In this document: piece after piece, positions 15,005-21,646 of the stretch | Layout of the letters: every line of letters starts with the position of its first letter | Position numbering within the stretch: the first letter of the stretch is position 1 | IMG/VR virus record: IMGVR_UViG_3300047666_000656 | Location: 1 to 21,646 of that record | DNA length: 21,646 nt | From: a virus | Reading direction: 5' to 3' (one strand) | The notes under the pieces: model-generated | What the model saw: only the letters and a program-made list of their open reading frames with translations | Told to the model about the DNA's origin: nothing | The model's database searches: none | Translations under genes and position numbers: made by a program

Positions 15005-15507
15005 TAGAAGGGAATATCTTCTCCGTCATTAAAGTTATCTACATGCTGTTGCTGCCTTGGATTAGGCTGGTTGCTTGTTTGCGGCCTTTGTTGCGGCTGT
15101 TGATACGTTGGGTTAGGTTGATTCTGATAGCCTTGCTGCGGCTGTTGTGCTGCTTGCTGTGGAGAACCTTGCGGCTTGCTGTCTAGCATTTGCATATCGC
15201 TTACGTTTATTTCAGTTGTGTACTGATCAGCTCCGTTTTTATCCTGCCATTTCCGAGTAACCTGTTTACCTGAAACATAAGCCTTAGAGCCTTTCTTTAG
15301 ATAATCGCGCATAATTTCAGCTAGGCGACCAAAGCAGACGCATTTAACCCAGTTAGTTTGCTCAACCTTTTGGCCGTTTTTGTCTTTATAGTCATCCCCA
15401 CAAGCTAAATTAAAACTAGCTGTTACTGTGCCGCTTGCGGTCATTCTAATGTCAGGATCATTACCTAAATGTCCTATAAACTGACATAAATTTAAGTCTT
15501 TGCTCAT
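15004..15507 (-). CDS. ssb: Single-stranded DNA-binding protein
   Basis: This 167-residue SSB has an OB fold at residues 1-~107: NLCQFIGHLGNDPDIRMTAS, SFNLACGDDYKD, TNWVKCVCFGRLAEI, LKKGSKAYVSGKQVTRKWQD and YTTEINVSDMQML. A Gln/Pro/Asn-rich linker and the conserved acidic tip ending DIPF, which recruits partner proteins, follow. It coats single-stranded DNA during replication and RecT-mediated annealing. The start overlaps the stop of the HNH gene (ATGA), with AAGGA upstream. recT lies two genes upstream in the same operon. Length and domain plan match bacterial SSB. Confidence 0.95.
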   Translation of the reverse strand: MSKDLNLCQFIGHLGNDPDIRMTASGTVTASFNLACGDDYKDKNGQKVEQTNWVKCVCFGRLAEIMRDYLKKGSKAYVSGKQVTRKWQDKNGADQYTTEINVSDMQMLDSKPQGSPQQAAQQPQQGYQNQPNPTYQQPQQRPQTSNQPNPRQQQHVDNFNDGEDIPF

Positions 15508-16040
15508 GCTGATATTCCTTCTATGTTTGTATTATTGCCATGATTGACATGAAATCCATAACCTATCTCTGCTGATTTTCTAGCCGCAACAGCGTCAAAA
15601 AAAACCTTAAAATAGCCTAGGCATATTTTTTTATAATCAACTGTAATATAAGATTCCCATGACATTTGTTTTGGATACCACTTAACGCCTGTTACTCCAG
15701 ATTTATTTAGCTTATGAAGTTTACAGTTCCTTAAGTTTTCTCTGTTTGACGCGGCTCGCATATTATCCAGTTTATTATCTGATCTAATGCCGTTGATGTG
15801 GTCTATATGTTCAAGTGGTAACGCTCCTTTTGATATTAGCCATGCTATTCTATGTGCAGAATAAAGCTTGTTCCTTATTGAAAAAACCTTATATCCATTT
15901 GCATTAATAGTTCCGGCCTCATCACCAGTCTTAACCCTATTAGCTGGGCTTTTCTTCCATGTAAGGATTCCAGTGTCAGGATCATATTTTAAAAACTCAT
16001 CTACGAATAACTTTAGAGTGGTATTTATTCCGCGAGCCAT
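15504..16040 (-). CDS. HNH homing endonuclease with AP2 domain
   Basis: This 178-residue protein has three parts. An N-terminal strand segment is of the type that precedes HNH_3 domains (FLKYDPDTGILTWKK, GYKVFSIRNKLYSAHRIAWL). The HNH motif follows with H78, D80, H81 and N89/N93 (EHIDHINGIRSDNKLDNMR). At ~111-163 there is an AP2-like DNA-binding domain (SGVTGVKWYPKQMSWESYIT). Such enzymes cut DNA at specific sites and spread as free-standing mobile genes. It sits between recT and ssb, coupled to both: its ribosome site overlaps the recT stop and its stop overlaps the ssb start, so insertion has left the operon intact. Confidence 0.9.
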   Translation of the reverse strand: MARGINTTLKLFVDEFLKYDPDTGILTWKKSPANRVKTGDEAGTINANGYKVFSIRNKLYSAHRIAWLISKGALPLEHIDHINGIRSDNKLDNMRAASNRENLRNCKLHKLNKSGVTGVKWYPKQMSWESYITVDYKKICLGYFKVFFDAVAARKSAEIGYGFHVNHGNNTNIEGISA

Positions 16041-19615: not shown

Positions 19616-19909
19616 ATGCAGTATAGAAAAAAGCCAGTAGTTATTGAAGCGTTAGTTTGGGATGGGTCACACCATAGAGGGATGTTTGAATTTCTTGGTG
19701 GAAGCGCATGCGAGTATATTTCAGGTTACGGTGACAACTTTTATATTGACCATAGCAAGGTTGAAGGTGGTCTAATTATTAAAACGCTTGAAGGTAAGCA
19801 CAAAGCCAGTATAGGCGATTATATTATCAAAGGTATAAGCGGTGAATTCTATCCATGTAAGCCTGATATATTTGAATTGACATACGATAAACTTGCAAAG
19901 TCAGAATAA
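19616..19909 (+). CDS. PGDYG-like phage protein
   Basis: This 97-residue protein opens MQYRKKPVVIEALVWDG and contains LEGKHKASIGDYIIKGISGE followed by FYPCKPDIFELTYD, the signature I associate with PGDYG-domain phage proteins (here IGDYI). The function of the family is unknown; it is a small beta-rich fold common in early regions. The ribosome site is AAGGAG. It is the last gene before the long non-coding region. Confidence 0.8.
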   Translation: MQYRKKPVVIEALVWDGSHHRGMFEFLGGSACEYISGYGDNFYIDHSKVEGGLIIKTLEGKHKASIGDYIIKGISGEFYPCKPDIFELTYDKLAKSE

Positions 19910-19926
19910 ATAACTATAATTAACGC

Positions 19927-20073
19927 ATCTTCTGAATTAAGTTGTAGAAGATAACAGGCGTGTAGGATCGTCTTTAGAAAGATAACTAGGAAGGGTCATT
20001 AAGATAGAACAGGTTCAATTGGGTTTTTCCTAGTTGATCCGCCCCTCCTACGATTGGGCTTGTTTTATTTTAA
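19927..20073 (+). ncRNA. Structured non-coding segment with three-way junction
   Basis: A hairpin ATCTTCT/AGAAGAT (19927-19933/19946-19952) is followed by a junction. The closing helix is GGATC/GATCC (19965-19969/20036-20040). It encloses a hairpin TCTT-TAGA-AAGA (19971-19982) and the perfect 9-bp helix AACTAGGAA/TTCCTAGTT (19984-19992/20027-20035), with an apical loop containing AACAGGTTCAATT. GCCC/GGGC (20041-20044/20056-20059) plus TTGTTTTATTTT then looks like a weak terminator. An alternative pairing, GTAGGA/TCCTAC (19962-19967/20046-20051), competes. It may be the 3' leader of the operon, a separate small RNA, or the 5' part of the larger RNA. Confidence 0.55.
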
Positions 20074-20122
20074 TGGCCTTTTTTGTGTCTGTAAGTTAAA
20101 CCAAGCAAGTTAAAGCGCGCTA

Positions 20123-20128
20123 TATAAT
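20123..20128 (+). promoter_or_regulatory. Consensus -10 box before the large RNA
   Basis: There is a perfect TATAAT preceded by GCTA. No good -35 lies at 16-18 bases (ACCAAG at 17). AAGTTAAA occurs twice just upstream (20093-20100 and 20107-20114) and could bind an activator. Transcription would begin near 20135. Confidence 0.45.
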
Positions 20129-20134
20129 ACTTGC

Positions 20135-20750
20135 AGACACACCCTTTCTAAAGCTTCAGTCTGTATATGTGGTGGTGTTGTTGCGACGGATAGCCTCCAG
20201 AGCTGGCATAAAATCGATTGTAAGGTTCGAATCCTTAGCAACACCCCTTCATATACAGATTGAACAGTCTAATTAAAGATAGGTAAAAGTGGCTTGCGTC
20301 AGAGCATTATTCGCCACTGCTAATATGGTAAATACAGATTTTTTTACACTTTTATCGCTGTATTTACTTTAAAAACTTATTAGCACCTATCTCTAATTAG
20401 ATTGATTCCCACGCCCATTAAGAACTAACGTTAACAGCAAGCACTAGCAGAAGCCTCGTAAGGGCGTTTGCAAAAGAATCCGTATGCTATTGCGGTGACT
20501 GGATCTAGACGGTGTTAGGTACGCTTTGTTCCAAGCAGAGAGCCTATAAACAGAATCATGCTGCCTTGTTTCAAATATTAGACTGAGTTTAGAAGCTAGA
20601 CTAACAGTAATCACTTTGACAAGAGGCGAGGCTGGTACCCTCGATAAAAACTACGTCTGATAAATTGTTGTTAACGGCTACTTGGTATTAATTGAATATA
20701 TGTGTTGCTAGGCTCCTATAAGGTATAGGGCAGCGAACGTCTAGATGAAC
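20135..20750 (+). ncRNA. Large ornate structured RNA (GOLLD/ROOL-like candidate)
   Basis: There is no credible ORF, but dense complementary helices are seen in serial domains. (a) 15 bp, 20155-20169/20250-20264 with one G-U pair, capped by a tRNA-like element. (b) 11 bp, 20265-20275/20394-20404, then 7 bp, 20278-20284/20385-20391. These open into a junction with AGTGGC/GCCACT (20288-20293/20313-20318) and GCTAATA/TATTAGC (20319-20325/20378-20384). The second arm carries 10 bp GTAAATACAG/CTGTATTTAC (20328-20337/20358-20367). (c) ACGCCC/GGGCGT, 20411-20416/20462-20467. (d) 9 bp, 20503-20511/20738-20746, enclosing GAGCCTA/TAGGCTC (20540-20546/20709-20715) and hairpins at 20586-20602 and 20627-20643. 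GCTGCC/GGCAGC (20560-20565/20729-20734) would make a pseudoknot. Size, phage setting and tRNA-like insertion resemble GOLLD; this class assignment is inference. Confidence 0.75.
20174..20245 (+). ncRNA. tRNA-like element capping a long stem
   Basis: The acceptor helix GTGTTGT/GCAACAC (20175-20181/20238-20244) has an extra G-C pair at 20174/20245, like the G-1:C73 of tRNA-His. The T-arm is canonical: TAAGG, TTCGAAT, CCTTA (20221-20237). CCCT follows instead of CCA. Between the two, no normal D-arm or 5-bp anticodon stem with a 7-base loop can be drawn; only GCC/GGC (20193-20195/20205-20207) pairs. The 5' and 3' flanks continue the helix for another 17 bp, so the element is a domain of the large RNA rather than a free tRNA. 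A degenerate tRNA gene is the alternative. Confidence 0.6.
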
Positions 20751-20803
20751 CTATGTTAAAAATTTAATGGATGAATTCAACAAATTGAGAAGGAGTTAAA
20801 GCT

Positions 20804-20965
20804 ATGGAAATGCAAATTATTCAGTATTTTCGTGAACGCGGGTTAGAGCCTATTAAAGGTGATATTGATTTTTTTAATCGGTTATTTGAATATCATTTAA
20901 AAGAAAAGCTAGAAGAATTAGAAAAGCAAAATAAAGATCGCCATCACTATTTAAACAGGAGTTAA
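20804..20965 (+). CDS. Small helical protein after the structured RNA
   Basis: This 53-residue protein has the start MEMQIIQYFRERGLEPIKGD, a helical second half (FEYHLKEKLEELEKQNKDRH), and an end HHYLNRS encoded within the first leader cassette. The ribosome site AAGGAG is strong. Function unknown. Confidence 0.65.
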   Translation: MEMQIIQYFRERGLEPIKGDIDFFNRLFEYHLKEKLEELEKQNKDRHHYLNRS

Positions 20966-20972
20966 GACTATT
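20939..20972 (+). repeat. Leader cassette, copy 1
   Basis: It shares ATCACTATTTAAACAGGAG and TTAAGACTAT with copies 2 and 3. It carries the stop region of one gene, the AGGAG ribosome site and the start position of the next. Here the start codon is ATT instead of ATG. Confidence 0.9.
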
Positions 20973-21193: not shown

Positions 21194-21230
21194 CACCGTC
21201 ATCACTATTTAAACAGGAACTAAGACTATG
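21194..21230 (+). repeat. Leader cassette, copy 2
   Basis: CACCGTCATCACTATTTAAA is identical to copy 3; CAGGAACTAAGACTATG then differs by two bases (AACT for AGTT), which weakens the ribosome site. It supplies the ATG of the gene at 21228. Confidence 0.92.
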
Positions 21231-21509
21231 AGTGAATATAACATGCACCAAAAAATAGGGATGCTTGAAGAAAAACTAATAGGAAAATCTGCAAAGATAC
21301 ATGAACTTGAATTACAAATTATAAACTTAGAAAACGCACTTAATCAGATTAGAAACCCTGTTAAATTCTTTCAAGATGAGGCTGAAAAAGATGGTGCAAT
21401 ATTGAATGGTTATATGGCGGTACAAATGGCAAAGGATGCAGAAACCTTAAAAGCTTGGGCGAATTCTGCGCTTTTAATTCATGCTCAAAGCACCGTCATC
21501 ACTATTTAA
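21228..21509 (+). CDS. Coiled-coil protein, unknown
   Basis: This 93-residue protein has a long heptad helix at residues ~8-45 (QKIGMLEEKLIGKSAKIHEL, ELQIINLENALNQIRN) and a second helical segment (FFQDEAEKDGAILNGYMAVQ). Its last residues, STVITI, are encoded by the third cassette copy, so the repeat has been added to or extends into the coding end. Probably oligomeric. Function unknown. Confidence 0.65.
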   Translation: MSEYNMHQKIGMLEEKLIGKSAKIHELELQIINLENALNQIRNPVKFFQDEAEKDGAILNGYMAVQMAKDAETLKAWANSALLIHAQSTVITI

Positions 21510-21527
21510 ACAGGAGTTAAGACTATG
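21491..21527 (+). repeat. Leader cassette, copy 3
   Basis: CACCGTCATCACTATTTAAA followed by CAGGAGTTAAGACTATG. It includes the last codons and stop of the coiled-coil gene, the AGGAG ribosome site and the ATG of the methyltransferase. Confidence 0.92.
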
Positions 21528-21646
21528 AAACTAATAAACGGCGATTGCCTGGAAGAAATGAAGAACATCGAAAGCGGAAGTGTTGACTTAATTGTCTGCG
21601 ATTTGCCTTATGGTACCGTTGGCGAAAGTATGAAAGATAATACCGG
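21525..21646 (+). CDS. DNA methyltransferase, N-terminal part (runs off the window)
   Basis: 40 residues are visible. MKLINGDCLEEMKNIESGSV is the typical beginning of amino-methyltransferases that act on adenine N6 or cytosine N4, in which 'GDC' starts the fold. DLIVCDLPYGT contains the catalytic DLPYG (D/N/S-PPY type, motif IV), and motif IV coming first suggests the beta class order. It would methylate phage DNA, which may protect it against host restriction or serve regulation. Target sequence unknown. It starts in the third cassette copy. Truncated at the right edge. Confidence 0.88.
   Translation, partial: MKLINGDCLEEMKNIESGSVDLIVCDLPYGTVGESMKDNT

Follow-up and report, generated by a model that had tools for sequence, protein, structure and literature searches.

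A hitherto unclassified family of large non-coding RNAs with pseudoknots in marine phages

Several large structured RNAs have been described in phages. GOLLD is found in phages and prophages, sometimes carries tRNAs in a linker between its 5' and 3' domains, and has no known function (PMC12286853). ROOL, also a large phage RNA with pseudoknots, is linked to tRNA islands (PMC12286853). GOLLD forms a 14-mer RNA-only cage and ROOL a multimeric RNA-only cage. In the Vibrio phage ICP1, the gp139-gp140 RNA (about 800 nt) is gene-free and abundantly transcribed (PMC7567579). The RNA considered here resembles it in being a large gene-free RNA of a family that occurs in Vibrio phages.

The locus lies in the viral record IMGVR_UViG_3300047666_000656 of IMG/VR, of which positions 1 to 21,646 were analysed (the window). 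The gene content is podovirus-like (SU10-type adaptor, head-closure protein Hc3, tail fibre, SSB and RecT). An HNH endonuclease gene (phrog_99; 15504-16040, - strand) adjoins that for SSB and is possibly a homing element. Downstream of the region of interest, a near-identical 30-base leader, CATCACTATTTAAACAGGAGTTAAGACTAT(G), occurs at 20939-20970, 21195-21231 and 21491-21528, and also in the related contig L082 (about 2028-2062). It precedes successive small ORFs and a methyltransferase-like gene and could be the boundary of a recombination or expression cassette.

The original prediction was that positions 19910-20803 contain no credible reading frame and are built of long RNA helices. The first part is correct: from the end of one gene at 19909 to the start of the next ORF at 20804, the + strand has no ORF of at least 50 amino acids. 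The - strand has a single 56-aa GTG frame, and the longest stop-free runs are 58 codons (+) and 68 codons (-). The genes flanking the region abut or overlap each other. The minimum free energy of the + strand is -282.8 kcal/mol, compared with -219.8 +/- 7.0 for dinucleotide-shuffled sequences (z -8.96; none of 20 shuffles as good), and is therefore clearly lower than expected from composition; the - strand reaches a z of only -3.09. Long stems with G-U pairs are indeed present (a 25-bp helix, P3, together with H1, PK1, P2, P4, P5 and P6), but they do not fill the 890 bases evenly. The strong signal is concentrated in the first 500 bases or so (19926-20415), whereas 20409-20800 folded separately is not unusual (z -0.40).

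No match in the window attains the gathering score of its Rfam family, and no tRNA is predicted there by ARAGORN. Below-threshold matches to miRNA, snoRNA and sraA families were set aside as chance, and tmRNA (RF00023) gives only a weak antisense match (13.3 bits). With the Rfam GOLLD and ROOL models, cmscan detects nothing in the window or in the other members of the family at E 0.5-5. When 15-17 records were searched directly with RF02032 and RF03087, in runs without a positive control, nothing was detected at E 1. A GOLLD control was sought in 121 Bacilli genomes and none was found; because the model searches had no positive control, a very remote kinship with either class is possible at the sequence level. 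The prediction of a giant structured phage RNA with a link to tRNA, possibly of a new class, thus stands, while membership of GOLLD or ROOL, also suggested, has no covariance model match behind it. The window RNA looks to be neither of the two and to be built on a similar plan. It belongs to a separate class, absent from Rfam 15, within the giant tRNA-associated phage RNAs.

Relatives of the window RNA were reached via motif patterns rather than by blastn. A blastn search with the RNA against 50,697 phages and a megablast search with the whole window both gave no match. A neighbouring protein led to the L002/L082 contig, where the upstream bases are identical to those of the window (341/341) and the RNA differs. 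Motifs common to the window and L082 led to further contigs and from there to cultured Vibrio phages. Homologs are present in more than 20 other phage contigs; the cultured Vibrio phages are Seahorse, vB_VaM_H2, BT-1011, phiV208, 242E40-1 and several Nahant isolates.

A covariance model of the 5' domain (R1) also matches loci outside its training set, at 57.6-87.4 bits (L282-L284, L288) and 93.4-100.8 bits (L297-L302). Phage phiV208, which entered the collection via a 3' piece in common, was afterwards matched by R1. A short stretch is also common to phiV208 and phage NF, which was reported without tRNA genes (PMC10196503). Matches below 30 bits are unsafe, one Bacillus genome having scored 29.6 bits; for four loci in this range (L138, L281, L286 and L287) the score by itself was not accepted as proof of membership. 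In L138 (3554-3671), L280, L281, L286 and L287 there are either weak R1 matches (21-26 bits) or a possible interleaved helix pair and a U tract recognised by eye. These may represent a branch of the 5' domain that is more distant, but they lie near the false-positive level. The ICP1 RNA (L266, 2100-3090) was rejected as a member: it has no R1 match and, by reading, no similar scaffold. A scan of the genome contigs with an arm pattern gave chance matches only. The description of Seahorse includes three tRNA genes and does not mention an RNA of the window type (PMC7012835).

The region encodes a non-coding RNA that belongs to a phage family and is built of three modules: a 5' domain, a set of arms and an interchangeable 3' domain. 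All features given below are on the + strand. The 5' domain, about 130 nt long, is common to all homologs and forms the family core (19957-20087 in the window; R1 88.4 bits, the window being in the training set). It is preceded by a leader hairpin, ATCTTCT...AGAAGAT (19927-19952), which is identical in L082 and thus gives no covariation signal. The core consists of two interleaved helices and a third pairing. P3 (19993-20017 with 20054-20078) is about 20-25 bp long among the 19 aligned members, and its 3' strand runs directly into a tract of six U residues, U6 (20079-20084), invariant in 19/19. In H1 (19984-19992 with 20027-20035), the bases just before P3 pair with bases inside the P3 loop, forming a pseudoknot. 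PK1 (19961-19967 with 20046-20052) connects positions 4-12 of the domain with a site that lies close to the P3 3' strand and, in a minority of the members, before the 3' strand of H1. Two further helices are predicted. P2 pairs CTTTAGAAAG (19972-19981) with CTTTCTAAAG (20144-20153). P1 would pair GGCGTG (19957-19962), the last two bases of which are common to PK1, with CACGCC (20410-20415); matching pairs in L086, L098 and L104 were recognised by eye only.

These pairings are maintained by compensatory change in H1, P3 and PK1, and the covariation expected of a genuine structured RNA is therefore present across homologs. Since the MAFFT alignment misplaces H1, this helix was tested in an alignment-free way, by swapping its arms between members. 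Native H1 arms pair at a mean of -14.4 kcal/mol compared with -6.4 for swapped arms, and those of P3 at -29.6 compared with -14.6 (n=19). For each of the two helices the native pairing is better than the row mean in all 19 members, and it beats every swap in 16/19 (H1) and 15/19 (P3). Native PK1 also exceeds the row mean in 19/19. The same test is weak for P2, which barely varies, and the native pairing there is only slightly better than the swapped. In the alignment (A1, 19 members), the covariation score of P3 and PK1 together is 0.407 compared with 0.217 in shuffles, none of 500 of which reaches this value, and it drops to 0.08-0.16 when the pairing is slid by 1-3 columns. The bases pair in 83.9% of cells, with changes on both sides in 20 of 29 pairs. 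The window has what defines the family: U6 and, supported by compensatory change, PK1 and the pseudoknot of H1 and P3.

Between U6 and the 3' domain lie the arms, of which the window has two of hairpin type (P4 and P6) and one degenerate tRNA-like arm (P5). P4 (20085-20140) is a plain hairpin in the window, as in L284, L131 and others. At the same place Seahorse has tRNA-Trp, -Arg and -Gly in tandem, and real tRNAs are also found in H2 (Met and Arg), L297-L300 (Ser and Arg) and L282 (Gly), with tRNA-like elements in L283, L288 and L082. In 1.242.O, 1.110.O and 1.240.O the tRNA lies 3' of a P4 hairpin. P5 (20158-20261; fold z -5.27) is a stem with the handle TGTGGTGGTG/CACCCCTTCA, and homologous arms occur in L004/L138 (two), L085, L086, L131, L134, L140 and L146. 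Its head (20174-20245) has an acceptor-like stem and a T arm, AAGGTTCGAATCCTT, without a valid anticodon arm. It matches tRNA-Sec (RF01852) at 26.3 bits (E 0.009), below the gathering score of 47, and ARAGORN reports neither a tRNA nor a readable anticodon in it. P6 (20266-20403) has a stem, AGTCTAATTA...TAATTAGATT, that ends in a branched hairpin; the same stem is present in L131. Environmental members have further arms (apparently five in all in L131, by eye).

Two types of handle recur, TGTGGTGGTG/CACCCCTTCA and GAGAGT/ACTCTC, and the heads that they carry differ in every case. The heads of L102, L283 and L086 match the tRNA model (RF00005) at 35.7-37.8 bits, above the gathering score of 29. 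They keep the acceptor, the D arm, the T arm (GGUUCGA) and the discriminator base, with 42-48 nt around the anticodon arm where the model has 9-17 positions, and ARAGORN finds no normal anticodon in these arms. The head of L106 is just under the cut-off (28.7 bits), and the insert lies in its D loop rather than around the anticodon arm. As predicted from their sequences, these four heads cannot take part in normal decoding. The first three recall the tRNA-like domain of tmRNA in keeping the acceptor and T arm and in having the anticodon arm replaced, but unlike tmRNA they also keep the D arm. In the open-licence literature we have come across no exchangeable mimic arms on constant handles.

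Similar arms also occur elsewhere. Mimic-type arms that share the handle of P5 but lack the scaffold stand by themselves between phage genes (L004/L138, 3192-3293 and 6768-6877; L085, 6147-6232 on the - strand; and L140). An arm with this handle follows structured 5' regions of other, unrelated kinds in L134 (5747-5858) and L146 (8752-8854). Just upstream of the arm, L134 has a sub-threshold int-alpA RNA match (27.9 bits); in L146 the arm is followed by a CCA-bearing tRNA-like element whose middle part is enlarged.

The 3' domains are of several kinds that cannot be aligned to each other. One kind is found in L104, L117, L106, L131, L134 and L282 and has its own compensatory pairs (for example, CCATG/CATGG, CCAAG/CTTGG and CCAGG/CCTGG), with changes on both sides in 12 of 27 predicted pairs. 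In the window, the putative 3' domain (20416-20790, boundary uncertain) is assigned from its position in relatives. The segment 20409-20800 has no homolog in any locus compared, and a scan with GAGGCTGGTACCCTCG gave no alignable relative. Since this segment has neither special stability nor a homolog, the 3' limit of the window RNA is uncertain. Comparison of close relatives shows exchange of arms and 3' domains between phages with near-identical flanks. For example, 1.242.O and 1.110.O are identical at 130 of 131 positions of the 5' domain and have different tRNAs and 3' domains, and L098 and L102 share 377 of 380 bases of the 3' domain and have different arms. Moreover, L297 and L298 have their tRNAs in common but not the 3' domain, and the identity of the window with L082 does not extend to the 3' half.

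This modular plan invites comparison with the RNA cages. The window family might work as a GOLLD- or ROOL-like RNA-only multimer, unrelated by descent, in which the tRNAs or tRNA-like arms would be internal cargo or a linker. Size class and phage setting agree, tRNAs lie between the 5' and 3' domains in some members as in the GOLLD linker (PMC12286853), pseudoknotting is heavy and the constant handles could be docking sites. There is, however, no covariance model similarity to either class, and the conserved part is reversed: in GOLLD the 3' region is universally conserved and the 5' region variable, whereas the present family has a constant 5' domain and 3' domains that vary. The arms, in addition, carry tRNA mimics on constant handles, which distinguishes them from GOLLD, and, in contrast to ROOL, the tRNAs are inside the RNA rather than beside it and the arms are modular. 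We consider such a cage rather unlikely.

The arms could alternatively be the remains of a phage tRNA operon with a structured leader and trailer, the window copy of which is decaying, its tRNAs having become pseudo-tRNAs and hairpins. In several phages functional-looking tRNAs with CCA ends do lie tightly between U6 and CCTTTCTAAG, and every step from tRNA to hairpin is present among the members. Decay, however, would not be expected to leave the handles constant while the heads change, nor to alter only the anticodon arm of mimics that keep the acceptor, D and T arms. Compensatory change also preserves the scaffold pairing in members that have no tRNA. This explanation is therefore unlikely.

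A sigma-70-type promoter, TTGCAA-16-TATAAT, is predicted at 19893-19920. It matches the consensus at 10 of 12 positions, and an equivalent -10 box is found in the corresponding position ahead of nearly all homologs; promoter-like sites are not in excess in the scan that gave this match. The predicted transcript start is most likely near 19926, downstream of this promoter, instead of at 19910, and we infer that the RNA is transcribed independently from it. In BT-1011 (L277, about 2090-2140), the 5' domain and U6 are followed by the first 18 or so bases of a tRNA-Met and then by the downstream gene. This phage appears to be a natural deletion in which everything after the 5' domain (arms and 3' domain) has been lost, and the RNA would therefore be dispensable there.

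Such a promoter-proximal structure at the head of an operon could also be a cis-acting transcription element, either an attenuator or an antiterminator of the put type. The put RNA of phage HK022 is a promoter-proximal structured antiterminator. P3 followed by the invariant U6 resembles an intrinsic terminator, and a gene follows the 5' domain directly in BT-1011. Nevertheless, the tRNA-Met remnant 3' of U6 marks BT-1011 as a probable deletion derivative, a consensus terminator scan finds no terminator, and the arms, handles and 3' domains would be left unexplained. The window RNA is also far larger than put and has arms and tRNAs. We regard this function as quite improbable.

The functional molecule is the + strand RNA, because G-U combinations greatly outnumber A-C in H1 and P3 (106 compared with 6; the A-C are symmetric mismatches within predicted duplexes and the ratio is indicative) and P3 is more stable on the + than on the - strand in 19/19 members; the energy of H1 by itself shows no strand preference (11/19). 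The many inverted repeats in one intergenic region might also be taken for palindromic DNA that acts as an origin or a packaging site, for example. On these grounds this reading can practically be dismissed, the more so as the promoter, the tRNAs and all homologs lie on one strand and the pseudoknot pairing is non-palindromic.

The reading that we prefer, with about an even chance of being correct, is that of an independently transcribed scaffold RNA with a hub and arms, whose tRNA or mimic heads meet host proteins, as decoys or as a protected reserve. The 5' and 3' domains would together form a rigid hub to which the arms are attached. The heads would engage host proteins by which the acceptor, elbow or T arm of a tRNA is recognised; their most plausible role would be that of decoys for, or a reserve protected against, tRNA-targeting defence enzymes, and perhaps that of cargo. 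The tips would turn over quickly because hosts differ. The decoy function is suggested by shape only: tRNA forms that are of no use for decoding, carried on a scaffold, would suit such a role, which would explain the rapid exchange of tips on a constant base. Phage tRNAs are known to weaken immune systems that cleave tRNA, and it has been proposed that viral tRNAs compete with those of the host for an immune nuclease (PMC12409363). Inhibition of host protein synthesis early in infection is reported for Seahorse (PMC7012835), which, with respect to the RNA, is a correlation only. Many members (the window, L284 and 1.275.O among them) have no tRNA model match above threshold, and tRNA mimicry may for this reason not be a general function. 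More tentatively, and with some doubt, the RNA may be a modular machine in which a pseudoknotted hub presents exchangeable mimics, altered in the anticodon arm, that capture host defence enzymes acting on tRNA.

The members of this family are non-coding RNAs of marine phages, large and pseudoknotted, and had not been classified before. Scans for phage tRNAs miss or mislabel the mimics (for example, one is listed as tRNA-Und in the annotation of phage 242E40-1). GOLLD and ROOL have no known function, and a separate class with cultured Vibrio phages among its carriers allows a direct test of the role of such RNAs in relation to tRNA. Natural material for this is provided by the BT-1011 deletion, by the module swaps between near-identical phages and by tips that range from working tRNA through mimic to hairpin. 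If the heads do capture defence enzymes, phages would diversify their RNA tips as they diversify their anti-defence proteins.
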